Shown here piece after piece: positions 14,083 to 53,465 of a stretch of DNA of 64,000 bases. Origin of the DNA: Sphaerisporangium rubeum (GTDB lineage Bacteria; Actinomycetota; Actinomycetes; Streptosporangiales; Streptosporangiaceae); the NCBI RefSeq assembly GCF_014207705.1, contig NZ_JACHIU010000001.1:3898501-3962500 (forward strand), written 5' to 3'. Position numbers and translations under genes: made by a program. The notes under the pieces were generated by a model, which saw only the letters and a program-made list of their open reading frames with translations, was not told where the DNA came from and made no database searches. The stretch's first letter is position 1. Each line of letters opens with the position of its first letter.

Positions 14083-14219
14083 CGCGCTTCATGCTCCAAA
14101 CTCCCGCCGGGTCCCCCGGTCAGGGGGCCGGCCCGGCGGGTCACTCGGGACTCGGGTCCTCGCGGCCTCCCGTCCGCGGTCGCGAAAGTCATCGGTGAGG
14201 TGGGCCGGCGCGGCGGCCG

Positions 14220-14732
14220 TCAGTCGACGGGGGCGAGCGCGAGCAGCGGGTCGTCGTACTGCACGGGGCAGCCGTCGCGGGCCGTGATCTCGCTGACGCG
14301 GCCGCGCCGCTCGGACTGGACGGGGTTCATCAGCTTCATCGCCTCCACGATGCCGATCTGCTGTCCGGGTTCGACGACGTCACCGACCTCGACGAACGGC
14401 GGGGCTCCGGGTTCGCGTGAGCGGTAGAACGTGCCGACCATCGGTGAGCGGATCCAGGTGCCGGCGGTGTCGGCCGGACCGTCCGGCTCCGATGTCCCGG
14501 ATGTTGCCGATGTCTCGGACGGCGCGGCGGGCCCGGCGCCGGGCGGGGCCGGGTGCGCGGGGCCGGCCCATTCGACGTCGACGGCCAGCGTGGCGGTGGA
14601 CACCCTGATGCGGCGCAGCGGCGACCGTCCCGCCTCGCCGAGCCGCGCGGCGTGCCGCACGACCCAGTCGAGCACCTGCTCGGCGGCGTCGCCGGTGGCC
14701 CCGCCGCCGGGCCGGGTGATGTCGGCGGTCAT
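14220..14732 (-). CDS. accB: Acetyl-CoA carboxylase biotin carboxyl carrier protein
   Basis: This is a 170-residue biotin carrier. The C-terminal biotinyl domain has SPMVGTFYR, FVEVGDVVEPGQQIGIVEAMK and the biotinylation site EAMKLMN with Lys133. A Pro/Ala/Ser/Thr linker (about residues 60-92) joins an N-terminal helical region as in E. coli AccB. Its ATG overlaps the accDA stop codon (ATGA), and accC follows 137 bp later. In a polyketide locus it would move the carboxyl group from AccC to AccDA. Confidence 0.93.
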   Translation of the reverse strand: MTADITRPGGGATGDAAEQVLDWVVRHAARLGEAGRSPLRRIRVSTATLAVDVEWAGPAHPAPPGAGPAAPSETSATSGTSEPDGPADTAGTWIRSPMVGTFYRSREPGAPPFVEVGDVVEPGQQIGIVEAMKLMNPVQSERRGRVSEITARDGCPVQYDDPLLALAPVD

Positions 14733-41056: not shown

Positions 41057-41305
41057 GGGCACCTCACCTGGGACACGATCTACGGGAGAGATCGGAAGAA
41101 CGAGCACCCAAGGTAGAGATCGGCGACGACCTGCTCTATTACCTCTGAGCAAGGCGTTGCTACCGTTGACCAAGTTCCTATCGCGGCTTGACAGGGCAGG
41201 AGCGCGTGTGCAGCCGGAGACGGCCCGACATCACCTTCCCCCCACCCGGCTGTGAGAGGTGCCCCCGATGTCGAACGTGTTCAGTTTCCGCATAAGGTGG
41301 GCAAG

Positions 41306-42535
41306 GTGAGTGTCGCGCTCGGGATGACCCGCCCCCCGCTGGTTCGCACCATTCCCGTTCACGACCCGGAGGACCTGGTCGCCCGCCTGCCGCAGGCACC
41401 CCCGTACGCCTGGATCCACCAGGGGGACGGCCTGGTCGCCTGGGGAGAGGCGGCCAGAGCCACGGTGCCGCCGGGTGCGGGACGCTTCGACTGGGCACGC
41501 CGCTGGCTGGCGCGCGTGTTCGCCGGGACCCGCGTCGAGGACGACGTCCTGGTCCCCGGCTCGGGTCCGGTCGCGTTTGGTTCGTTCACCTTCGACCCGG
41601 CCTCCGCCGGTTCGGTGCTCGTCGTCCCTCGCATCGTGCTCGGCCGCCGGGACGGCCGCGCGTGGCTGACCACCGTCGGCGACCCCCCCATCGACCTGAT
41701 GGCCCCACCCGAGAGCCCCGGCGGCGTGCTGTACGCCGACGGCTCGCGCACCGCGCCGGAGTGGGAGCACGCGGTGGCCCGCGCCGTCGGCGAGATCCGG
41801 TCGGGACGGCTGGAGAAGGTCGTGCTCGCCCGCGACCTCGTCGCCACCACCGAACGCGACATCGACGTACGGCTGCTGCTGGACCGCCTGGCCCGCGCCT
41901 ACCCCGAGTGCTACACGTTCTCCTGCGACGGCCTGGTCGGCGCCACCCCCGAACTCCTGGTGCGCCACACCGGCCAGGCCATCGAGTCCCTTGTCCTCGC
42001 CGGCACCACCGCCAGAGGCGCCACCCCCGCCGAGGACAAGGAACGCGGCCAGGCCCTGTTCGACTCCCCCAAGAACCGCCACGAGCACGTCTGCGCCGTC
42101 GCCTCGGTCCGCGACGCGCTCGCCCCCCTGTGCGCGGAGCTGACCGTCCCCGACGAACCGGAACTGCTGACCCTCCCCAACGTCCAGCACCTGGCCAGCC
42201 GGGTGCACGGCCGCCTGTCCGACGGCGCCTCCGTGCTCGACGTCGTCGCCGCCATGCACCCCACGGCCGCCGTCGGCGGCACCCCCACCGCCGTGGCCCT
42301 CGACGTCATCCGCCGGCTCGAAGGCATGGACCGCGGCCGCTACGCCGGCCCGGTCGGCTGGATCGACGCGCGCGGCGACGGCGAATGGGGCATCGCCCTG
42401 CGCAGCGCCGAGATCACCGGCCCCACCGCACGCCTGTTCGCCGGTTGCGGCATCATGCGCGACTCCGACCCCGCCGCCGAGCTCGCCGAGGCCCAGGCCA
42501 AGTTCCGCGTGATGCGCCAGGCCCTGGAGGGCTGA
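41306..42535 (+). CDS. menF: Isochorismate synthase
   Basis: This 409-residue chorismate-utilising enzyme converts chorismate to isochorismate, the first step of classical menaquinone synthesis. Visible motifs are GRLEKVVLARD, PKNRHEH, HPTAAVGGTP, GPVGWIDARGDGEWGIALR and GCGIMRDSDPAAELAEAQAKF. The GTG at 41306 is preceded by AAGGTGGGC; an ATG at 41315 or an open frame to 41252 are alternatives. menD, menB and menE lie at 49.6-53.5 kb, so menaquinone is the likely pathway rather than a siderophore. Confidence 0.88.
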   Translation: MSVALGMTRPPLVRTIPVHDPEDLVARLPQAPPYAWIHQGDGLVAWGEAARATVPPGAGRFDWARRWLARVFAGTRVEDDVLVPGSGPVAFGSFTFDPASAGSVLVVPRIVLGRRDGRAWLTTVGDPPIDLMAPPESPGGVLYADGSRTAPEWEHAVARAVGEIRSGRLEKVVLARDLVATTERDIDVRLLLDRLARAYPECYTFSCDGLVGATPELLVRHTGQAIESLVLAGTTARGATPAEDKERGQALFDSPKNRHEHVCAVASVRDALAPLCAELTVPDEPELLTLPNVQHLASRVHGRLSDGASVLDVVAAMHPTAAVGGTPTAVALDVIRRLEGMDRGRYAGPVGWIDARGDGEWGIALRSAEITGPTARLFAGCGIMRDSDPAAELAEAQAKFRVMRQALEG

Positions 42536-42725: not shown

Positions 42726-43466
42726 ATGAGCACTCGACTCGACATCGATCTCGACCGGTCGAGCCCGGTGCCGCTGTACTTCCAGGTGGCCGAGCAGATC
42801 GCCGAGGCGATCAAGCGGGGCGAACTGGGGCCGGGTGCGCGGCTGGACAACGAGATACTGCTGGCGGACCGGCTCGGGCTGTCACGGCCCACGATCCGGC
42901 AGGCGATCCAGTACCTCGTGGACAAGGGCCTGCTGGTGCGCAAACGCGGCGTCGGCACGCAGGTCGTGCACGGACAGGTGAAGCGGTCGGTGGAGCTGAC
43001 CAGCCTGTACGACGACCTGCGGCGCGCCGGGCAGGAGCCGGGAACGCGGGTGCTGGCACTGGAGGCGGTGGGGGCCGACGACGCGATCGCCGCGGTGCTC
43101 GGGGTCGCGGCCGGCACGCCGGTGGTGCGGGTCGAACGGGTGCGGTACGCCTCAGGGGAGCCGCTGGCGGTGCTGCACAACTGGCTGCCCGCCGGGCTCG
43201 GGCCGCTCACCGCGCAGGCACTGGAGGAACGCGGGCTGTACGAGCTGCTGCGCGCCGCCGGGGTCCGCATGCGCGTCGCGAACCAGCGCATCGGGGCCAA
43301 GGCCGCCACCAACGTCGAGGCCCGGCTGCTGGACGAGCGGCGCGGCGCTCCCCTGCTCACCATGACGCGCACCACCTACGACGACCAGGGACGGGCCGTG
43401 GAGCACGGGTCGCATGTCTACCGTGCCACGCACTACTCGCTGGAGGTCACGCTCATCGAGCGCTGA
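42726..43466 (+). CDS. GntR family regulator, HutC/UTRA subfamily
   Basis: This is a 246-residue regulator. The winged HTH contains PLYFQVAEQIAEAIKRGEL and LADRLGLSRPTIRQAIQYLV followed by the wing GLLVRKRGVGTQV. The UTRA ligand domain (about 90-240) has VVRVERVRYASGEPLAVLHN and the final HVYRATHYSLEVTLIER. The ATG at 42726 follows GGGAG. It converges on the RiPP operon and lies between it and menF. Its ligand and targets are not evident; autoregulation through the upstream dyad is likely. Confidence 0.9.
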   Translation: MSTRLDIDLDRSSPVPLYFQVAEQIAEAIKRGELGPGARLDNEILLADRLGLSRPTIRQAIQYLVDKGLLVRKRGVGTQVVHGQVKRSVELTSLYDDLRRAGQEPGTRVLALEAVGADDAIAAVLGVAAGTPVVRVERVRYASGEPLAVLHNWLPAGLGPLTAQALEERGLYELLRAAGVRMRVANQRIGAKAATNVEARLLDERRGAPLLTMTRTTYDDQGRAVEHGSHVYRATHYSLEVTLIER

Positions 43467-43532
43467 ACCGGGACAGCCGGCCGGGTGACGGAGGTCCGGC
43501 AGCAGGCGGACAGGGGTCGTGACCACCCAGGT

Positions 43533-43552
43533 GCCTTTTACAAAGTAGATCA
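43533..43552. promoter_or_regulatory. GCC-TTTAC-N3-GTAGATCA element, copy 3
   Basis: The core is TTTAC-AAA-GTAGA with one extra T before it. It lies between the convergent GntR gene and the RiPP operon, and its TCA is the stop codon of the last RiPP gene on the minus strand. Confidence 0.45.
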
Positions 43553-44632
43553 GCCGGAGTTCTGGCTGAGGAGGTAGTCGCGCGCCTTCTCCAACGGAGA
43601 CACCCCGTACTCCTCCTCCACCGCCGAGGCGATCAGATGGCAGAACAGGTGCCGCTGGATCGCGGTGACACCGAGCCGGGCCAGGTGCGCGTAGAGCATG
43701 TTGACCACGAGGCGATGAGCGAGGAACCAGTCCGATTCGAGAACCTCGCTCCGGAACCGGCCGGTGGACATGAGCACGTCGAAATAGCCGACGGGGTGGC
43801 GCTGGACCACGGGCTGGTCGGGGAAGTCCAGGTCGATCTCCTTACGGGCCAGCAGCGGGAGAGCCGTCTCCTTCTGGCGGCGGGTGAAGGCGATCCAGTC
43901 GCGTACGTGCGGCGGCGGGTCGCCGGCGTCGATCGCCGCGACCACGCCGGTCACCGTCGCGCGCATCTGCCTGGCGTTCTGGCGGTACCGGGCCTCGAAC
44001 GCCGCCATGAGCGCGTCGCGGTCCTCGCAGCACGAGGCGGCCGCCTCGACGTGCGAGCGGTACGACATGTACCCGCGGGCGATCGGGGGGACGCTCACGT
44101 GGGCCACGGCGACCATGAGGTCGATGACGGCCGTGAACAGCGCGAGCTCGCCCCGCCGGACCCGGTCGAGCGTGCCGAACGCGAGCCTGGTGCTCTCCGC
44201 GGCGGCCTCGTCGATCAGGTCCGCCAGCACCTGGCCGCCGAAGACGCGCAGCCGGTCGTCGTACGGCTCGGTCTGCAGGGAGTTGTCCGGGTACCACGGC
44301 GACAGCGGCCCGGTCTCGTGTTCCCGCACGGCGAGCAGGCGGTGCGCGGCGAGATGCTCGTGCTCGTCGAGGCGGGTGGTGGACGGGTGCTCACGCAGAT
44401 ACCGGGTGATCGCCTCGGTGGCGGCAGGGAGGATCTCGCGGTCCCAGTCCCCCGTGGCCGCTCGGAAGTTGAGCCGCAGGTGAGGGCCCTGGCGCCAGTG
44501 GCGGACGATGTACGGCCGCTGGACCAGGCCGTCCAGGCGCCGCAGGAGCGGCCGGACGCAGTCCAGGATCAGGCCGTCCTTGTCCTGGTCGTAGTACCGG
44601 ATCTGGACGGCGCGCCAGGTGACGTCACTCAT
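43550..44632 (-). CDS. SpaB_C-domain protein, candidate [4+2] pyridine synthase (pyritide/thiopeptide D-type)
   Basis: This 360-residue protein belongs to the thiopeptide-type bacteriocin biosynthesis (SpaB_C) family. Near the N-terminus it has QIRYYDQDKDGLILDCVRPL and RHWRQGPHLRLNFRA; the C-terminus has LVVNMLYAHLARLGVTAIQR. In thiopeptide and pyritide operons this position and size belong to the enzyme (TbtD/MroD) that joins two dehydroalanines into a pyridine and releases the leader. The ATG at 44632 overlaps the preceding gene's stop (ATGA), which rules out the longer frame to 44743. It could instead be a second elimination-like protein; assignment rests on gene order and on the lack of the HLFCNRLG motif of its neighbour. 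Confidence 0.75.
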   Translation of the reverse strand: MSDVTWRAVQIRYYDQDKDGLILDCVRPLLRRLDGLVQRPYIVRHWRQGPHLRLNFRAATGDWDREILPAATEAITRYLREHPSTTRLDEHEHLAAHRLLAVREHETGPLSPWYPDNSLQTEPYDDRLRVFGGQVLADLIDEAAAESTRLAFGTLDRVRRGELALFTAVIDLMVAVAHVSVPPIARGYMSYRSHVEAAASCCEDRDALMAAFEARYRQNARQMRATVTGVVAAIDAGDPPPHVRDWIAFTRRQKETALPLLARKEIDLDFPDQPVVQRHPVGYFDVLMSTGRFRSEVLESDWFLAHRLVVNMLYAHLARLGVTAIQRHLFCHLIASAVEEEYGVSPLEKARDYLLSQNSG

Positions 44633-45678
44633 GGCCTCTCCTCTTTCCGCGCCTGCGCCTGCAGGGTGGCGGCGCTCAGGTACCGCAGGTGCGCCTCTTC
44701 GGCGATCGACAGGCCGAGCCGGTTGCAGAACAGGTGGACGCACCGGTCCAGCACGATCAGGACGTCGTCCCGTGCCGCGTCGGCGGGGCCGTCAAGGCGA
44801 GGACCACCGGGGACACGGAGGCTCGTGTCCTGTCGGGCCGGACCGAAGCGGCCGGCCCGCCGGAGCGCGTCGAGCCGCCGCCGCAGGGTGCCGATCGACC
44901 GCCACCAGGCCCCGGCGTGAGATTCCTGCGGAGGCGGCCCACCGGCACGGCCGGCCGGTGGGTGGTCCCCGGACATGACGGCGCGGGAGGCGACGGCTCG
45001 GCAGCGCTCGGCCTGTGCGACGAGGGCTTCGCGCCGGCTCGCGAAGATCTCCGCCTGCCGTGCGCGAGCCGGAGCCGGATCCCAGCGGCCGCGTTCCCGG
45101 GTCAGCAGAAGGCCGAGGCGGCGAGGGTCGGGTTCCCCGGCCATGAGGGTGAGCATCGTCGCGGCGAGAGCGTGGCCGAGGCGCCGCCGGTGGTCGGGCT
45201 CGGCGCGCAGGATCGCCAGCGCGATCCGGCTGGAGTCGGTGAAGTGCCGTTCGACGGCCGTGACGGCCTCCGGCCCGCCGAACGTCGCGTACTCCGGCCG
45301 GTAGGCGACGGCCTCGACGTGGTCGTCGGGACGAAGCCGTTCGTCGTACGCGGCCAGGCCCTCGCGCCGCGCGAACTCCCGCGCCAGCAGCGCGTAGTGC
45401 TCACGGTCCCAGGTGCCGGCCGACGGATGCGCCACGAGGTGCTCCTCCAGTACGGCGGTGGCACGTTTCCCGATCGTCGCGGCGTCGCCGGCGTCACGCG
45501 GCAGCAGGCGGAGCCGGAGATGCGGGCCGCCCTCCCAGTACCGCAGGAAGAAGAACCCCTCCAGCCGCGGATCCAGCTCTCCGACCAGACCGTCGACGGC
45601 CGTGGTGAGCAGCAGGTCGGTGCCGGCCCGGTGGAAGGCGTGCAGCGAGATCCAGCGGTCGGTCATGGCCTCAGTCAT
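44629..45678 (-). CDS. Split LanB elimination-domain protein (C-type)
   Basis: This 349-residue SpaB_C protein probably removes glutamate from glutamylated Ser/Thr to leave dehydroamino acids. The family's core is clear: WISLHAFHRAGTDLLLT, then FFFLRYWEGGPHLRLRL with the two conserved Arg, and DRCVHLFCNRLGLSIAEEAHL near the end, which carries the His and Asn-Arg seen in LanB elimination domains. A disordered Pro/Gly-rich insert (about residues 232-262) interrupts the middle. It overlaps the upstream B gene by 8 nt (ATG 45678; ATG 45666 is an alternative) and the D gene by 4 nt. Confidence 0.82.
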   Translation of the reverse strand: MTEAMTDRWISLHAFHRAGTDLLLTTAVDGLVGELDPRLEGFFFLRYWEGGPHLRLRLLPRDAGDAATIGKRATAVLEEHLVAHPSAGTWDREHYALLAREFARREGLAAYDERLRPDDHVEAVAYRPEYATFGGPEAVTAVERHFTDSSRIALAILRAEPDHRRRLGHALAATMLTLMAGEPDPRRLGLLLTRERGRWDPAPARARQAEIFASRREALVAQAERCRAVASRAVMSGDHPPAGRAGGPPPQESHAGAWWRSIGTLRRRLDALRRAGRFGPARQDTSLRVPGGPRLDGPADAARDDVLIVLDRCVHLFCNRLGLSIAEEAHLRYLSAATLQAQARKEERP

Positions 45679-48280
45679 GGTTCACCTCGACCACGTACTC
45701 GGTCACATGGCGGTGCTCGCCGGGCCGCTCGCCGGGCCGCTCGCCGGACCGCTCGCCGCCGCCGGCGATGACGACGGCCGCCTCGAAGTCCGGCAGCAGC
45801 TCATGGAAGACGACCATCGGCCCGCTGGTGTCCAGCCCTCGGTCGAACAGCGCGACCAGCGCGGGGTCGGCCAGATCGAGATATGTCGGTTTGGCGTGCC
45901 GCGCGAGGCGCAGCCGCTCGCGGACCTGTGTGCCGGGGGCCGACGAGGAGACGAAACACCGTTCCGGCAGGCCGTGAGAGGCGAACCACCCGGCGAGCGC
46001 CAGCAGGTGTGCCGCCTCCGAGTCGCCTTTGCCCCGGCGCGGGATCTGGCGACTCGGGACATACCAGGCGACCCGCGCCACGGTGACCCGGCCGACCGTC
46101 ACCCGGCCCCTGCGCACGACGTGGGACGGCACGGACTCGGGCCGCGGGGAGAAGACCGACTCCAGGTCCGTCACGGGGCTCGGCATGTCACCGAAGACCT
46201 GCAGCAACAGGCGTGCCGTACGCGGCAGCAGCATGGGAGCGACCATTCCCGTGTACACCGGCATGAGCCGGGTGCCGTACGTCATGTGCGTCAGGACGAG
46301 GCCACCGGGCTCGTGCCGGACCGCGAGGTCCCCCATGGCGCACGTGTCCGGACCACGCGGAACCGCGCCTGGATAGCCGAGCTCCTGGGCCGCCACCGGG
46401 GAACGCAGGTTGACGTTGCTGCCGAACAGCCCGGTGATCTCCACCGGCGTGCCGCGTTCCGTACCGAGGAGGCGGTTCTCCCCCACCGGAACGCCGGCGA
46501 CCCGCAGCAGGCGGTGCACGCGGCTGCGCATCGCGCCGTGCCCCGGGCCGAGACCGTTCAGCACCAGGCGTACCGGCGTGCCGTCCGGCGGGCCGATCGT
46601 CTGCACGAAACAGGACAGCGACCCCACCGGACGGACGAACGCGGGGCGGCCGGCCGCCGAGCCGGCCAGCACCTCCGGATCGATGGTCAGTGTGCCGGGG
46701 GTCTCGCGCAGCGGCCCGCGTACCGCGGCCAGCGCCGCGGTCCTGGCGTCCTGGAGTTCGCCGAGCCGGGGAACGGCGGGGGTGCGGCCGGCCGGGGGCC
46801 GCTCCTGCCACGGGTACATGAGCGCGTGCAGCTCGCCGGCCGGGGTGCCGGGGGCCGCTCGGTGGGTCCGCTCCGCGAGCGTCCGGTGGAACCGGCCGAA
46901 CGGCACCTGCTCGCCGGGGCCGAACCACTCCGCGAACAGGTCGGCGGCGAGCAGCCTCGCGACGCCGTCCCGGTCGAACACGGCCGCGAAATCGGTGATC
47001 ACGTGCAGATCGCGGAGAGCGGGACGCCAGGCGGCAAGGCCGAGCCACGGTCCGGGGGTGGTGAGCACGGCGTTCTCGTGGAAGAGGTTGCGATCAGGCA
47101 GGCGGTCGGCGTCGTTTCCCGCCAGCGCGGCGAACGCGGACCGGACCTCACGCCGCAGCGCCTCACGTTCCGGCACGCCGGCCGCCTCCGGGTAACGGGT
47201 GAGCGCCTCCTGCGCGGCGGCCAGTGCCTTGCCTGCCGGATGCGTGCCGAGCCGGTCGGCCAGGCCGGCGAGATGCGCGGCGGCCTGGTCGGCGACCGGG
47301 GGACGGAGCTCCAGCACGCCGAGGCCGGCCAGCCGGCCGAACGCGCCGCCGGCCCGGACACGCAGATCGTCGTGCGGCGGGCTCAGCAGCCGCCGGAGCG
47401 GCTCGGACGCGGCGACGCCGCGGTAGACGTCCTCCTGGCCGGTCAGGTACCAAAGGCGGCCGTCGTCCTCGTCGAGGCTCGGGTTGGGCCGCACGTCGAA
47501 GAGGGCCGCGAGCGTGTCGTCGGTTCGCGCGAGGCCGGTGAGCAGGCCGAGCAGCAGCGGCACGTTCGGCTCGACCGCGCCGCGCCACTCCCAGGGCCCG
47601 TCCCAGCGGACCGGCTCGCCGTCGTCGCTCCACTCGCCGAGCGCCGCCATCATGAAGGTCGCGTGCGGGCTGGTCTTCGCCACCACGCGGGCCAGATAGC
47701 GGGTGAGCCGTAGCGCGACCTGGCGCGGCGGTACGCCGCCGGCCGGCCCGGCCAGCCAGCGGCTCAGCGCGGCCGACATCTCCGGTCCCGCCTGGAGCAC
47801 GCCGAAGCGGAACGCGTCGGTGCCGGCCCACCGGCGCAGCGCCTCGCCGGCGTCCCGGCGCTCCTGGTCGAGCAGGCCGGGCAGCCGCGTGACGAGCGCG
47901 TCGTGCCGGTCGAGGTCCGCGACCCAGGCCGCGACGCGTGGATCGAGGCCGTGGCCGATCTCCACCGGCCAGGCGCGGCGTCCCGGCCGCTTCGCGTTGT
48001 ACAGCGCGCGCCGCAACGCCACCAGCGCCGGCCGCACCGGGCCCGGGCCTGCCGCGCCGATCACCGGTTCGAGTTCCCCCGCCAGCCGCCTCCCCTCGGC
48101 GGCCAGCCGGTCGCGGACCGCGAGGATCTCCTGGACGCTCCGCCATGTGGCCGCGCATCTCAGCTGCGCGAGCGCCGCCACCGGCAGCGCGGCGGCCCTG
48201 GCGACCACTGCCGCGTCCGCCGTGCGTCCCGGCGCGCCGATCTCGACGCGTCCCGGCAGGCCACGACGCGTCGAGACCAT
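45671..48280 (-). CDS. Split LanB glutamylation protein (Lant_dehydr_N, B-type)
   Basis: This 869-residue protein is a lantibiotic dehydratase N-terminal domain without the elimination domain. Such proteins use glutamyl-tRNA to glutamylate Ser and Thr of a precursor peptide. Family regions visible include the start RVEIGAPGRTADAAVVARA, RLTRYLARVVAKTSPHATFM, PLGRLGVLEL-like segments and FGSNVNLRSPVAAQELGYPG. It starts 11 bp after the precursor stop and is coupled to the C gene. The C-terminus holds an odd GERSGERPGERPGE repeat. A PEARL-type ligase is an alternative, but the separate elimination protein argues for dehydration. Confidence 0.85.
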   Translation of the reverse strand: MVSTRRGLPGRVEIGAPGRTADAAVVARAAALPVAALAQLRCAATWRSVQEILAVRDRLAAEGRRLAGELEPVIGAAGPGPVRPALVALRRALYNAKRPGRRAWPVEIGHGLDPRVAAWVADLDRHDALVTRLPGLLDQERRDAGEALRRWAGTDAFRFGVLQAGPEMSAALSRWLAGPAGGVPPRQVALRLTRYLARVVAKTSPHATFMMAALGEWSDDGEPVRWDGPWEWRGAVEPNVPLLLGLLTGLARTDDTLAALFDVRPNPSLDEDDGRLWYLTGQEDVYRGVAASEPLRRLLSPPHDDLRVRAGGAFGRLAGLGVLELRPPVADQAAAHLAGLADRLGTHPAGKALAAAQEALTRYPEAAGVPEREALRREVRSAFAALAGNDADRLPDRNLFHENAVLTTPGPWLGLAAWRPALRDLHVITDFAAVFDRDGVARLLAADLFAEWFGPGEQVPFGRFHRTLAERTHRAAPGTPAGELHALMYPWQERPPAGRTPAVPRLGELQDARTAALAAVRGPLRETPGTLTIDPEVLAGSAAGRPAFVRPVGSLSCFVQTIGPPDGTPVRLVLNGLGPGHGAMRSRVHRLLRVAGVPVGENRLLGTERGTPVEITGLFGSNVNLRSPVAAQELGYPGAVPRGPDTCAMGDLAVRHEPGGLVLTHMTYGTRLMPVYTGMVAPMLLPRTARLLLQVFGDMPSPVTDLESVFSPRPESVPSHVVRRGRVTVGRVTVARVAWYVPSRQIPRRGKGDSEAAHLLALAGWFASHGLPERCFVSSSAPGTQVRERLRLARHAKPTYLDLADPALVALFDRGLDTSGPMVVFHELLPDFEAAVVIAGGGERSGERPGERPGEHRHVTEYVVEVNHD

Positions 48281-48291
48281 GTCCGGGACGC

Positions 48292-48450
48292 TCAGATGAG
48301 CCAGCTGGTACGGCCGGTGATACCCGAAGCGCCTACCTCGGTGTTGCCGAGGCCCATGCCGAGGGCCTTCACGAGGTCCTCGCCGGGGAGCTCGACCGTC
48401 ATCACGTCGAGCGTGTCCAGATCGAGGCGGAGCGGTTCTTCTGTCGCCAT
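48292..48450 (-). CDS. Cys-free thiopeptide-like (pyritide-type) RiPP precursor, 52 aa
   Basis: I translated this small gene by hand. The leader begins MATEEPLRLDLDTLDVMTVE and ends LGMGLGNTEVGA. TEVGA matches the leader end of thiazolyl peptide precursors of the thiomuracin/GE2270 family (MTEVGAS or MPEVGAS). The inferred core is SGITGRTSWLI: Ser1, Thr4, Thr7 and Ser8 can be dehydrated, and there is no Cys, so no thiazole is possible. GGGAGAG lies 6 nt upstream of the ATG. It is first in an A-B-C-D operon with split LanB genes. Joining Dha1 with Dha8 would give a pyridine macrocycle with a Trp-Leu-Ile tail; this is inference. Confidence 0.88.
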   Translation of the reverse strand: MATEEPLRLDLDTLDVMTVELPGEDLVKALGMGLGNTEVGASGITGRTSWLI

Positions 48451-48901
48451 CTGCTCTCCCATTCTCACCCGCGGGAGCGGGCCATATCGGTGACGAGAAC
48501 CACGCTAAACAGGGCCAGGGGACCCGTCCATCCGGCCGATGGGTCCGAAATCACCGGATCGAATGACGGCCGAACAGGAATCGACTCTCCCTCGCGCCTC
48601 GGCGCGTAAGATGGCCTTCCTGAGCAGGCAGGCGTCACTGTCAGCATGTTTACAAGAACAGTCAGGCCCGCGATGGTGAGTATTTACTGTCCGCCGGAGT
48701 ACGGCCTCTTTTCGACACTCGTTCCGCTTTTGGGACGGACACGACAGAGGATTCCGGGGTAACCCCGCGGACCAGCGAGATTAACCGTCAATCAATATGT
48801 GTTACGTCTTTGTTTCGCGTAATCACGGAAAGGGTGCGCGGCGTCACGGAACGCCGCAGGACCCGGTGATGCCAGGCCCCGGCGAGACGCAGTGGTGACG
48901 C
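48451..48901 (-). promoter_or_regulatory. Leader and promoter region of the RiPP operon
   Basis: These 451 bp precede the precursor gene and are clearly AT-richer between about 48620 and 48840 than the rest of the window. A short dyad ACTGT...ACAGT (48633-48660) surrounds TTTACAAGA, and a CGGGG-TA-ACCCCG hairpin lies near 48755. The operon promoter should be here. No transporter, protease or regulator gene is hidden in it. Confidence 0.5.
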
Positions 48902-49597
48902 CTAGCCGGCCGCCTCGGGAACCGCCTTGGCGGCCGGGTCCGGCGGCGCCGGCTCCTCGGCGTCGCCGGTGTCGCTCGCGTCCGCGGTGTGCGCGGCGGC
49001 GGCGCGGGTGGCGCGGCGCTTGATGTACAGCGTGGTGCCGATGCCGAACAGGACGGCGACCACCAGGCCGACCCAGGAGAAGCCCTTGAGCCACCGCTCG
49101 GCCACGATGCCGAGGTAGTAGATCACCGCGGTGGTGCCGCCGGCCCACAGGATGCCGCCGAGCACGTTGGCGACAAGGAAACGCCAGTACGGCATGCGCA
49201 GCGCGCCGGCGAGCGGCCCGGCGAGGATGCGCAGCAACGCGATGAACCGGCCGAAGAACACGGCCCACATGCCCCACTTGTCGAACGACTCCCTGGCCTT
49301 CTGCAGGTGCGCGGGGCCGAAGTGCTTGGGGAACCGCCTGCCGAGCCGGTCGAACAGCGGCTGGCCGCCCTTGCGGCCGATGGCGTACCCGATGGAGTCG
49401 CCGATGATCGCGCCGACGCTCGCGCAGACCCCGACCCACAGGGGGTTGACGACGTGCTGCGCCGACAGCAGCGCCGCGCTGACCAGCACCACCTCGCCGG
49501 GCAGCGGGATGCCGAGGCTCTCCAGGCCGATGACCATCCCGACGAGCGCACAGATCCATAGGGGATCGATGGCCCGCAGCCATTCGTCGACATGCAT
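48902..49597 (-). CDS. DedA family membrane protein
   Basis: This 231-residue DedA/SNARE-associated protein is probably a polytopic lipid scramblase-like protein. The motifs are ESLGIPLPGEVVLVSAALL, GAIIGDSIGYAIGRKGGQP and FFGRFIALLRILAGPLAGAL, with the E, D and FxGR residues important in DedA proteins. A basic/Ala-rich C-terminal tail follows the last helix. It lies 10 bp downstream of menD on the same strand, so it is probably the last gene of that transcript. Confidence 0.9.
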   Translation of the reverse strand: MHVDEWLRAIDPLWICALVGMVIGLESLGIPLPGEVVLVSAALLSAQHVVNPLWVGVCASVGAIIGDSIGYAIGRKGGQPLFDRLGRRFPKHFGPAHLQKARESFDKWGMWAVFFGRFIALLRILAGPLAGALRMPYWRFLVANVLGGILWAGGTTAVIYYLGIVAERWLKGFSWVGLVVAVLFGIGTTLYIKRRATRAAAAHTADASDTGDAEEPAPPDPAAKAVPEAAG

Positions 49598-49607
49598 GGC
49601 TCACAGC

Positions 49608-51296
49608 CTATGTGGTGAGATGCTCCGACTCGCCGGTCGCCGTGAGAAAAGCCAGCACCGCCTCCTGCGCGGCCTCACGCATCGCCACGTGCACCGCGGC
49701 GTTCTCGGCGCGGTCGGTGCGGACCTCGACCATACGCGGTCCTTCGCCTCTGATGGCCTTCGGCAGGTCGCCGGCGGAGGTGAGCAACGTGTACGGGGTG
49801 CCGGTCGCCGCGGCGACGTAGGCGAGGTCGACGCCGTGCGGCGTGCCGAAGACCCGTTCGAACGGCGCGGTGAGCCCGGCCTGCGGCAGCAGCGAGAAGA
49901 TGCCGCCGCCGTCGTTGTTGACCACGACCAGGCACAGATCGGGACGCGGCTCGCGCGGGCCGAGGATCAGGCCGTTCTGGTCGTGCAGGAACGCGAGATC
50001 GCCGAGCAGCGCGTAGGAGGGGCCGTTGTGCGCGAGCGCGGCGCCGACCGCGGACGACACCAGGCCGTCGATGCCGGCCGCGCCGCGGTTGGCGAGCAGC
50101 CGCAGGCCGCGGCGGGGCCGCATGGCCTGGTCCAGGTCGCGGATCGGCATGGAGGACGCGCAGAACAGCAAAGCGTTGTTGGGCAGCGCCTCGGCCAGGT
50201 CGCGGGCCAGGCGCGGCTCGCTGATGCCGGAGTCGTCGAGCACGGCGTCCACGGCGTCCCGCGCGGCGGCCTCGGCCGACCGCCAGGACCGCAGCCAGGA
50301 GTCGTCCCCCGCGGCGACCGGGATCTCCACGGCGGGGGCGACCTGGGTGGCCGACCGGCTCGGGTCCGGCCAGCGGGACATGTCCGGGCTCACCACGATG
50401 TGCTCCCCCGCGCGGCCGAGCCAGCCGAGCAGCGGCCGGGACAGCGTGGGCCGGCCGAGCGTGACCACGACGTCCGGCACGTGCGCGTCGGCGAACTCCG
50501 GGATGCCGAGCAGGAAGTGGTACGCCGAGATGGAGTGGTCGCCGTACCGCGCGCCGCCGGTGGGTTCCGACAGCACCGGCCAGCCCGCCATGCCGGCGGC
50601 GGCGACGTACCGGCGGACGTTGGCGGCGCCGTCGCCGACGACGAGCACCCCGCGCCGCGTCGGCGCGACGTGCAGGCCCGCCGACGGCGGCGCCACGCGG
50701 GAGCGCACCCACGGACCGGAGGCCGCGCCGGTGAGCGGCTCGCTCCAGGTGTCGTCCCCGTCGGGGATCAGCGGCTCGCGGAACGCCAGGTTGAGGTGCA
50801 CGGGCCCCGGGTCGCCGGGGCCGAGGGACCGCTGGTAGGCGCGGCAGGTGAGCGAGCGCCAGTAGGCCACCTGGCCGGGACGGTCCTCCGGCACGCCGAC
50901 CTCGGCGAACCAGCGGACCGCGCCGCCGTACATCTTGATCTGGTCGATGGTCTGACTGGCACCGGTGTCGCGCAGTTCAGGCGGCCGGTCGGCGGTCAGC
51001 ACCAGCAGCGGCACCCCGGACTCGTGGGCCTCGATCACCGCCGGGTGGAAGTTGGCGGCGGCGGTCCCCGACGTGCACACCAGCGCGACCGGACGCTCGG
51101 ACCTGCGGGCCAGGCCGAGCGCGAGGAAAGACGCCGACCGCTCGTCGACGCGCACGTGCAGGCGGACCCGGGGGTCGGCGTGCGCGGCGATGGCCAGCGG
51201 CGCGGAGCGGGACCCGGGGGCCAGCACCACCTCGGTCAGGCCGCAGCGCACCAGCTCGTCGACCAGCACGGACGACAGCGCGGTCGCGGGGTTCAC
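49608..51296 (-). CDS. menD: 2-succinyl-5-enolpyruvyl-6-hydroxy-3-cyclohexene-1-carboxylate synthase
   Basis: This 562-residue ThDP enzyme condenses isochorismate with 2-oxoglutarate in menaquinone synthesis. The N-terminal signature is VVLAPGSRSAPLAIA, followed by VDERSASFLALGLAR and VCTSGTAAANFHPAV. The ThDP/Mg motif is LGDLAFLHDQNGL ... VVVNNDGGGIFSLLPQ. The start is a GTG at 51296. It is followed closely by dedA, and menB is upstream on the same strand. Confidence 0.95.
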   Translation of the reverse strand: MNPATALSSVLVDELVRCGLTEVVLAPGSRSAPLAIAAHADPRVRLHVRVDERSASFLALGLARRSERPVALVCTSGTAAANFHPAVIEAHESGVPLLVLTADRPPELRDTGASQTIDQIKMYGGAVRWFAEVGVPEDRPGQVAYWRSLTCRAYQRSLGPGDPGPVHLNLAFREPLIPDGDDTWSEPLTGAASGPWVRSRVAPPSAGLHVAPTRRGVLVVGDGAANVRRYVAAAGMAGWPVLSEPTGGARYGDHSISAYHFLLGIPEFADAHVPDVVVTLGRPTLSRPLLGWLGRAGEHIVVSPDMSRWPDPSRSATQVAPAVEIPVAAGDDSWLRSWRSAEAAARDAVDAVLDDSGISEPRLARDLAEALPNNALLFCASSMPIRDLDQAMRPRRGLRLLANRGAAGIDGLVSSAVGAALAHNGPSYALLGDLAFLHDQNGLILGPREPRPDLCLVVVNNDGGGIFSLLPQAGLTAPFERVFGTPHGVDLAYVAAATGTPYTLLTSAGDLPKAIRGEGPRMVEVRTDRAENAAVHVAMREAAQEAVLAFLTATGESEHLTT

Positions 51297-51370
51297 CTGC
51301 CCTCCTCGGGCACGGCCGCGCCACGGGCCCGGCGGGGACGCCGGGTCGCGGGCACGGGCAGACAGGTCAT

Positions 51371-52198
51371 CTAGGGACGGCGGGGGAATCTGGAGAAGTC
51401 GGGACGCCGCTTCTCCTTGAACGCGTCACGGCCCTCCTGCGCCTCCTCGCTCATGTAGTACAGCAGCGTGGCGTCCCCGGCGAACTGCTGCATGCCGGCG
51501 GCGCCGTCGCTGACCGCGTTGATGGCACCCTTGAGCATGCGCAGCGCCAGCGGCGACTTGTCCAGCATCTCGCGGCACCACTGGACGGTCTCGGCCTCCA
51601 GCTCGGCCAGCGGCACGACCTTGTTGACCAGGCCCATGGCCTCGGCCTCGGCCGCGTTGTAGAAACGGCACAGGTACCAGATCTCGCGGGCCTTCTTCAG
51701 GCCGACGGTCTCGGCGAGCAGCCACGCGCCGTACCCGCCGTCGAACGAGCCGACCTTGGGGCCGGTCTGCCCGAAGACGGCGTTGTCGGCGGCGATGGTG
51801 AGGTCGCAGCAGACGTGGAGCACGTGGCCGCCGCCGACCGCGTACCCGGCGACCATGGCGACGACCGGCTTCGGCAGGCGGCGGATCTGGATCTGCAGAT
51901 CAAGGACGTTGAGGCGGCCGATGCCGTCCGGGCCGACGTAGCCGTCGTCGCCGCGGATCTTCTGGTCGCCGCCGGAGCAGAACGCCTCGGTGCCGGCGCC
52001 GGTGAGAATGATCACACCGACCTCGCCGTCGTCCCGTGCGGCCTCGAAGGCGGCACGGAGCTCGAACAGCGTGGTGGGGCGGAAGGCGTTGCGCCGCTCG
52101 GGACGGTTGATGGTGATCTTCGCGATGCCTTCGCCGGTCTCGTAGATGATGTCCTCGTAGTCACCGGACCGCTTCCAGTCGACAGTGCTCACGGTCAC
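51371..52198 (-). CDS. menB: 1,4-dihydroxy-2-naphthoyl-CoA synthase
   Basis: This 275-residue crotonase-family enzyme closes the naphthoquinone ring from o-succinylbenzoyl-CoA. MenB hallmarks include [46 protein letters not shown], the bicarbonate-site region [16 protein letters not shown] and the C-terminal [14 protein letters not shown]. The start is a GTG at 52198. It is upstream of menD (74 bp gap) and divergent from menE across about 90 bp. Confidence 0.96.
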
Positions 52199-52289
52199 AC
52201 TCGCTCCTCACTCACCTGCGCTCACCTGCGCGTCGCCCGGCCGGCGACTCGGGCGGGGGCGTGCATACGACGGGACTAACCTTACGACC

Positions 52290-53465
52290 GTGAGTGAGCG
52301 GCCTGTGCACGCGGTGGTGGCACCCCCCGGCGGCGGCCTCGCCGACCGGATACGCCTGGCGCTCGGCGGCGAGGGCCCCGCCGTGCTGCCGCTCGACCCG
52401 GGGCTGCCGGGCCCGGCGCTGCGCGCGGTGCTCGCGGAGCTGCGGCCCACCCATGTGGTCACACCGGAGGGCACCAGGGCCTACCCCGGCGGCGTGGCCG
52501 CGGCGCCGGGCACGGCGGTGATCATCGCGACGAGCGGGTCCACCGGCACCCCTAAAGGGGTGGAGCTTTCCGCCGCCGCGCTGATCGCCTCGGCGGAGGC
52601 GTCCCTGCGGCGGCTCGGGGCCCGGCCGGGGGAACGCTGGCTGTGCTGCCTGCCGCCGTCGCACGTCTCGGGGCTGCAGGTCCTGGTCCGGTCGGTGCTC
52701 TCCGGGACCGAGCCGCTGATCCATGAGCGCTTCTCCCCCGCCGCGGTCGCCGCGAGCGGCGCCGACCACGTGTCCCTGGTGCCGACGCAGCTGCGGCGCC
52801 TGCTCGACCACGGCGCCGGCCTGTCGCGGTTCCGCACCGTGCTGCTCGGCGGCGCCGCCGCGCCGCCTGACCTCGTCCGGCAGGCCGGCACGCGGGTCGT
52901 GACGACGTACGGCATGAGCGAGACCTGCGGCGGGTGCGTGTACGACGGCGTGCCGCTGGACGGCGTGGAGGCGGCGATCGGGCCCGGCGGACGCGTCAGG
53001 ATCCGGGGGCCGGTGCTGTTCTCCGGGTACCGGCTCGGGACGGCGCCGTCGAACCTCGAAGGCGGCTGGTACGTCACTACAGATGTGGGAGAGTTCCGGG
53101 ACGGCAGACTGCTCGTGCTCGGCCGCGCGGACGACGTCATCAACACCGGCGGCCGTAAGGTCGCCGCCGGGCCCGTCGCCGGGGTGCTCACGCGCCACCC
53201 GGCGGTACGCGACGCGGTGGTCATGGGACGGCCGCACCCGGAGTGGGGTGAGGAGGTGGTCGCGGTCGTCGTCCCGGCCGATCCCGCGGCGCCGCCGACG
53301 CTCGGGGAGCTGCGTGCCGCGGTCAAGGAGACGCTGCCGGGCTACGCGGCGCCGCGCGCGCTGGAGGTGCTCGACGGATTCCCCCTGCTCGCCAACGGAA
53401 AACACGACCTCGTAGCCATCCGTCGTACTATTTTCGGCTTTGCTGGCATGAAAGATGAATCTTGA
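52290..53465 (+). CDS. menE: o-Succinylbenzoate-CoA ligase
   Basis: This 391-residue AMP-forming ligase activates o-succinylbenzoate for MenB. The P-loop-like motif is IATSGSTGTPKGVEL, the A5 motif TTYGMSETCGG, the A7/A8 region TTDVGEFRDGRLLVLGRADDV, and the catalytic Lys is in ANGKHDLVAIR. It is short for the family, as usual for actinobacterial MenE. The GTG at 52290 is used; the frame is open upstream into the menB promoter. Confidence 0.93.
   Translation: MSERPVHAVVAPPGGGLADRIRLALGGEGPAVLPLDPGLPGPALRAVLAELRPTHVVTPEGTRAYPGGVAAAPGTAVIIATSGSTGTPKGVELSAAALIASAEASLRRLGARPGERWLCCLPPSHVSGLQVLVRSVLSGTEPLIHERFSPAAVAASGADHVSLVPTQLRRLLDHGAGLSRFRTVLLGGAAAPPDLVRQAGTRVVTTYGMSETCGGCVYDGVPLDGVEAAIGPGGRVRIRGPVLFSGYRLGTAPSNLEGGWYVTTDVGEFRDGRLLVLGRADDVINTGGRKVAAGPVAGVLTRHPAVRDAVVMGRPHPEWGEEVVAVVVPADPAAPPTLGELRAAVKETLPGYAAPRALEVLDGFPLLANGKHDLVAIRRTIFGFAGMKDES

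Follow-up and report, generated by a model that had tools for sequence, protein, structure and literature searches.

Do four tightly coupled genes in a 64,000-nucleotide stretch of the Sphaerisporangium rubeum genome (the window, in whose numbering positions are given) encode a peptide macrocycle closed by a pyridine but free of azoles? A sequence-only reading of the window had taken these genes, at 43550-48450 on the minus strand, for an operon of pyritide type whose last gene, D, encodes a pyridine synthase. The coordinates, gene lengths and strand were all borne out, and the interpretation was upheld by the profile match of D, the tree, Tyr314, the predicted fold and the anchor residues of the precursor. 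The operon, with the order A (precursor peptide), B and C (the two predicted halves of a split LanB dehydratase) and D, is of pyritide type, a class described from Micromonospora rosaria. We put at roughly 0.93 the probability that it is a complete four-gene pyritide operon making a pyridine macrocycle through B, C and D.

Analysis of D placed it with the pyridine synthases by several routes. The NCBIfam profile for thiopeptide maturation pyridine synthases, NF045556, gave D 387.9 bits, above its cut-off of 325, and D matched PbtD (E 6.8e-51) and TbtD (E 6.3e-42) among PDB sequences. At a threshold of 1e-30, D was matched in at least 62 of 341 genomes of the window's family, a lower bound because five candidates were scored per genome. 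The 78 loci yielded 77 D proteins for a tree, L034 being left out as a copy of L074, to which were added 13 of the 59 C proteins that met the length and score limits. In this tree, of a quick type with Shimodaira-Hasegawa-like approximate likelihood ratio test (SH-aLRT) support and no bootstrap, and with long branches flagged by the program elsewhere in it, D separated from C at 100%, and the nine D proteins accompanied by pyritide precursors formed a single clade, likewise at 100%; TbtD itself (L108_D; 795.9 bits against 5wa3) was placed among the remaining D proteins. The alignment column of TbtD Tyr319 holds Tyr in 76 of the 77 D proteins (Tyr314 in the window) and His in one, and holds His in 58 of the 59 C proteins and a gap in the last. 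TbtD Tyr319 has a key role in catalysis according to one report, in which the Y319F and Y319A variants accumulate an intermediate (PMC12018205). The best fold matches of a D model were PbtD and TbtD (E 3.4e-16), followed by TsrL, with LanB dehydratases far behind, and the structure of the PbtD variant Y293F was present among the structural matches. The sequence-only reading had staked its case on whether D clusters with pyridine synthases or with elimination domains and on how a structure prediction would compare with TbtD. By profile, PDB matches, tree, Tyr column and fold, D is of the TbtD/PbtD/MroD type and does not group with elimination domains.

Nine such operons, the window's and eight more, were found among the 341 genomes, each with a precursor in which LGNTE[VI]GA leads into a core: SGITGRTSWLI in the window, SGLTGRTSWLI at L035, SGIARTSWLI at L036, SGIGRTSWLI at L037, SGYMRTSWVV at L038, SGCTSGKSWLI at L039, SGTWTSGKSWLV at L040, SGAWTSRTSWLV at L041 and SGTWTSSKSWLV at L042. 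Ser1, Gly2, Ser(-4) and Trp(-3), negative numbers counting from the C-terminus, are invariant in all nine cores, position -2 is Leu in eight and Val in one, and position -1 is Ile in five and Val in four. The window's core thus has the pyritide pattern of Ser1 plus a later Ser that directly precedes a C-terminal Trp-Leu/Val-Ile tripeptide. The earlier proposal that Ser would be conserved at core positions 1 and 8 held for Ser1, and for the second Ser as a residue; the latter is numbered 7, 8 or 9, so that what is constant is its distance from the C-terminus and not the number 8. The ring between the anchors is variable, with predicted sizes of 17, 20 or 23 atoms (20 in the window), and Cys is missing from eight of the nine cores, among them, as had been read, the window's. 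A degenerate DNA pattern for GNTE[VI]GASG matched 11 of the 341 genomes, namely the nine that carry the pyritide D clade and two, G304 and G307, in which the match fell within a frame of 321 codons that lacks a pyritide core and was rejected as chance; a reversed control pattern matched none of the 341.

The predicted 23-atom rings of L040, L041 and L042 hold internal Ser and Thr beyond the two anchor Ser, and their leaders carry repeated LD-rich units, unlike those of the window's subclade. The L039 precursor (near 14095-14250 in genome G184) has its Cys in the core, and its contig gave no match to YcaO; a free thiol near two dehydroalanines could yield a thioether in place of, or alongside, the pyridine.

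The pathway can be proposed by analogy with M. rosaria, where MroA1 has the leader end LGNTEVGA and the core SGWLGSWVI, and MroA2, by the residue numbers in the text, the core SGFFGRSWLI; MroB and MroC convert Ser1 and Ser6 or Ser7 to dehydroalanine, after which MroD closes the pyridine and releases the leader amide (PMC9247985). From MroBCD and TbtD we infer that B would esterify core Ser1 and Ser8 with glutamate from Glu-tRNA, that C would eliminate the glutamate to give two dehydroalanines, and that D would join these by a formal [4+2] cyclization followed by water loss, aromatization to pyridine and expulsion of the leader as an amide. The macrocycle predicted from this would have 20 members, enclose Gly-Ile-Thr-Gly-Arg-Thr, carry Trp-Leu-Ile as its tail and keep both Thr unmodified. 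Its [M+H]+ would be 1119.595 by the MroBCD rules (core minus three waters and one ammonia), and this arithmetic, applied to pyritides A1 and A2, gives their published rings of 14 and 17 members. The released leader amide would have a mass of 4311.17 Da, or 131.04 Da less if the first Met is absent. The enzymes would grip the precursor at the leader and the C-terminal Trp-Leu-Ile, leaving the ring largely free to vary. In MroA2, Gly2, Trp8, Leu9 and Ile10 accept only conservative changes, all examined single ring changes were tolerated and 44 of 56 multi-residue ring variants cyclized (PMC9247985); in the natural cores (n = 9), variation at Gly2 and in the C-terminal three residues stays within what MroA2 tolerates, and the ring differs freely. 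The internal Arg, which had been called unusual, proved otherwise, as MroA2 has Arg6 and an Arg or Lys in front of the second Ser is favourable for MroD (PMC9247985).

The mass of the operon's product would fall by 18 or 36 Da if one or both Thr were also dehydrated, to dehydrobutyrine (Dhb), as the sequence-only reading had suggested. A review allows Dhb in pyritides (PMC11920963), and Thr precedes the second Ser, at position -5, in six of the nine cores. In contrast, MroBC skipped a Thr so placed in every substrate examined (PMC9247985), and Thr4 occurs in only three of the nine cores while three have Lys, not Thr, ahead of the second Ser, a pattern that suggests recognition rather than modification. 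We regard dehydration of Thr as unlikely and retain the product with both Thr intact as the prediction.

Analysis of the genes themselves spoke to a different concern, that the operon is silent or a decaying remnant in this strain, as its presence in just two of the 11 genomes of the genus might suggest. The four frames are intact and their starts and stops coupled, with a gap of 11 bases between A and B and overlaps of 8 bases between B and C and 4 bases between C and D; the ATG of A is preceded by GGGAGAGCAG. D can be read mechanically as a longer open reading frame of 397 residues from a GTG, but the ATG of the 360-residue form is also where alignment with the homologues at L032 and L033 begins. 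Between the window and L035, the 52 codons of A show 11 synonymous and 4 non-synonymous differences, and because the identical four-gene order recurs in eight further genomes and the codon differences in A are rich in synonymous ones, the operon is not a chance arrangement. Similarity between the window and S. melleum DNA starts within the end of D and stops some 86 bases ahead of A. A promoter-like element, TGGACG-N17-TANNGT, is present with its 17-base spacer in all five operons of the window's subclade and in none of the four of the other, the pattern having been taken from the alignment of these operons, and it matches once in the 64-kb window; a generic sigma-70 scan found nothing. Decay is, on these grounds, a quite improbable account of the operon. 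None of its four genes encodes export or self-protection.

The absence of YcaO beside the operon and of Cys from its core separates it from the narrow, azole-bearing definition of a thiopeptide pathway, which has a YcaO cyclodehydratase and a Cys-rich core. The azole-gene search was for YcaO only and covered 18 of the 62 D-bearing genomes. As the sequence-only reading had it, no YcaO gene lies in the window's operon, and the only match in its genome (G000:C1:1866603-1867115) is partial and 2.07 Mb away. Among the nine pyritide genomes none had a YcaO match near the operon, nor any on its contig at under 1.2 Mb, some of these contigs ending less than 10 kb from the operon (that of S. melleum about 3 kb above A); G071 had no match at all, five had matches on other contigs only and three on the same contig, at 1.23, 1.77 and 2.07 Mb. 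By comparison, in nine genomes with a thiopeptide-like D, 11 of the 14 D genes have a YcaO gene within 6 kb, with at least one such D gene per genome. A reduced thiopeptide pathway with its azole genes elsewhere in the genome could call on the partial match, which at 78.4 bits is above the cut-off, but its distance, a core without Cys and the like cassette in G071, where no YcaO was matched, make this alternative extremely unlikely. Elsewhere in the family, thiopeptide-like precursors whose cores are poor in Cys and rich in Ser, SSAAGYCSSYLSATSCWAPEA being an example, lie beside B, C and D genes at L043-L046, L048, L050, L052, L056, L058, L060 and L062, and YcaO was near D in all four genomes checked among these loci.

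The predicted functions of B and C complete the pyritide reading. As had been noted, B carries the Pfam domain Lant_dehydr_N only, and C and D each carry Lant_dehydr_C. B matched PDB entry 6ec7, a lantibiotic dehydratase domain protein that we take to be TbtB (228 bits, residues 24-832), consistent with a glutamylating role. C matched Lant_dehydr_C and TIGR03891, both above cut-off, scored 69 bits against NF045556, far from the cut-off of 325, and has His315 at the alignment column where D carries Tyr; it had no match at 0.001 among PDB sequences. The predicted glutamylation and elimination halves of a split LanB pair thus appear, from their domains, to be separate genes. Peptide aminoacyl-tRNA ligases (PEARLs) also have the LanB N-domain without an elimination domain, and work without an elimination partner to extend a scaffold peptide at its C-terminus, but that B is such a ligase adding amino acids to a scaffold is scarcely credible given that the operon also encodes an elimination protein of its own, C, and a pyridine synthase, D, that B matches 6ec7 over most of its length and that the precursor has the pyritide anchors.

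Several points weigh against assigning the window's operon to a working pyritide pathway. The confidence of the D model is middling (mean predicted local distance difference test score, pLDDT, of 71.3, built with four sequences), and what links the operon to MroD is the precursor and membership of one family rather than a direct alignment of MroB, MroC and MroD. The Cys in the L039 core means that a Cys-free core is not absolute in the clade. Three of the 14 comparison D genes, all thiopeptide-like (G155:C2:447443, G257:C3:258065 and G257:C8:435658), have no YcaO within 170 kb on their contigs, and a missing YcaO alone is therefore not diagnostic of a pyritide; at the G257:C3 place (L061) there is a precursor candidate with Cys. 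Finally, MroBCD handle Thr before the second Ser poorly, with six of ten didehydrated substrates poor or non-substrates for MroD, while the window's core has Thr there, and 12 of the 56 MroA2 ring variants did not cyclize (PMC9247985). The ring is therefore under some constraint, and the window's enzymes must have other preferences. The window's D probably prefers Thr before the second Ser, since its own core carries one; the authors of the M. rosaria study note that Thr at this place is prevalent in natural variants, citing their Table S7 (PMC9247985).

Coordinates of the operon, its upstream element and its surroundings in the window
Feature	Position	Strand	Length and evidence
Precursor peptide A	48292..48450	-	52 aa; 41-aa leader ending LGNTEVGA + core SGITGRTSWLI; 8 homologues, L035-L042
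B, MroB/TbtB type, putative tRNA-Glu-dependent glutamylating half of split LanB dehydratase	45671..48280	-	869 aa; Lant_dehydr_N, 6ec7 match
C, MroC/TbtC type, putative glutamate-elimination half of split dehydratase	44629..45678	-	349 aa; Lant_dehydr_C, TIGR03891, His315
D, predicted pyridine synthase, MroD/TbtD/PbtD type; formal [4+2] macrocyclase, leader release	43550..44632	-	360 aa; NF045556, PDB, Tyr314, model
Promoter-like element TGGACG-N17-TANNGT	48502..48530	-	begins 80 bases upstream of A start; conserved
Stretch present in window, absent at same site in congeners	43467..48995		right edge certain to ~100 bases
GntR/UTRA regulator, left flank, outside operon	42726..43466	+	no match in fetched flanks of 8 other pyritide operons
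VTT-domain membrane protein, right flank, outside operon	48902..49597	-	no match in fetched flanks of 8 other pyritide operons

Comparison with congeners showed the site of the operon to be empty in them. The junction between the GntR and VTT genes holds 16-68 unmatched bases in ten of ten congeners and about 5,528 in the window, and the emptiness of the site marks the operon as a self-contained cassette. For S. melleum, the GntR side could be placed by DNA only, as the protein did not reach 1e-40. No exact direct or inverted repeats of at least 10 bases were found at the insertion edges. To the right of the VTT gene lie MenD-, MenB- and MenE-like genes (names inferred from Pfam domains), and with an isochorismate-synthase-like gene on the other side (41252-42535 and 49608-53465) the surroundings look like a menaquinone locus split by the cassette. 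A link between the operon and menaquinone was dropped, as GntR, VTT, MenD and MenB matched at none of the eight other pyritide loci in flanks of up to about 10 kb, shorter at contig ends; a 28-31% match to an AMP-binding (MenE-like) protein at L040 and L041 was the sole flank match among them. At L115, L118 and L119 (G214, G217 and G221) about 0.7-1.8 kb of extra DNA lies between the VTT side and MenD relative to other congeners, and the VTT-MenD junction therefore varies within the genus.

The flanks, compared over up to about 10 kb and less at contig ends, contained no gene common to all nine loci among open reading frames of at least 80 residues passing a third-codon-position GC content (GC3) filter. 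Such frames were shared by the close pair L040/L041 and otherwise only by L035/L039, L039/L042 and L039 with L040 and L041 (15% coverage). D is 86% identical to the window's in S. melleum and 83% in G138, where MenD is 85% and 81% identical, respectively; because these divergences are close, the sequences suggest that gain of the operon need not be recent, and a recent transfer is not proven. G138 and G184, of one genus, carry different pyritide subclades, with D 83% and 59% identical to the window's and MenD 81% and 83%, a mismatch that speaks against simple descent. Scanning viral contigs with D gave no relative, and seven plasmid records had a D relative (best 36% identical), none with A. 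Genome contigs gave at least three loci with a single-protein query, and an alignment query would reach further. In two overlapping draws from the class (394 genomes at 1e-60 and 216 at 1e-10) the pyritide D clade occurred only in three genomes, all of the window's family, and the precursor pattern matched the same three of the 394. There was no match at 1e-40 in 22 genomes of one other family, which says nothing about M. rosaria.

The window's operon adds a new ring sequence to the already known pyritide class, for which the reconstituted route has so far come from a single strain, M. rosaria. The nine natural operons put the two-site recognition model derived in vitro to an evolutionary test: the positions kept in nature include those where MroA2 accepted nothing but conservative changes. 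We are somewhat inclined to view pyritide operons as self-contained four-gene cassettes at unrelated sites that form natural macrocycle libraries, with the ends gripped and the ring sequence and size (17, 20 or 23 atoms) free, one of them bearing a free Cys beside two dehydroalanines, and to view the window's core as an as yet unmade natural pyritide with Arg in a 20-membered ring. The operons are a source of enzymes that may favour Thr ahead of the second Ser, an arrangement that MroD handles poorly, and the predicted 20- and 23-membered natural rings would be useful for peptide macrocycle making.

Comparison with published work showed how far the window's product had been anticipated. The earlier statement that no product with this core had been described stood for the exact sequence: a literature text search returned no paper with SGITGRTSWLI or RTSWLI and, for TEVGASG, only PMC9247985, supplementary Table S7 being outside the search and a prior listing there possible; topic searches likewise gave no paper on the window's operon. 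The core is less of a surprise than that reading held, being a close natural variant of the MroA2 core, and the M. rosaria study already points to natural variants in that table (PMC9247985).

A close relative of the operon is in Sphaerisporangium melleum JCM 13064 (L032, the same place as L035), in which the precursor is 92% and D 85-86% identical to those of the window and the core SGLTGRTSWLI has an equal predicted mass; in that genome the operon lies elsewhere and the GntR-VTT junction is empty. The thiomuracin enzymes TbtB, TbtC and TbtD of Thermobispora bispora are homologous to B, C and D, and D shares the catalytic Tyr and fold of TbtD. In contrast to thiomuracin, the window's operon has no YcaO nearby and no Cys in its core, its D is only 34% identical to TbtD and the pyritide D proteins form a separate clade. 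PbtD of the GE2270 pathway is the top PDB match of the window's D by both structure and sequence, although the substrate core of PbtD is Cys-rich and azole-bearing. The mro system of M. rosaria (PMC9247985) shares with the window the A, B, C and D set without azole genes, the leader end LGNTEVGA (MroA1), the Ser1-Gly2 start and Ser-Trp-aliphatic-Ile end of the core and an Arg near the second Ser (MroA2). It differs in having two precursors, where one was found in the window, and smaller rings, 17-membered in MroA2 and 14-membered in MroA1 compared with the 20 predicted from a second Ser at position 8, and in placing Arg directly before that Ser, where the window's core reads Arg-Thr-Ser.

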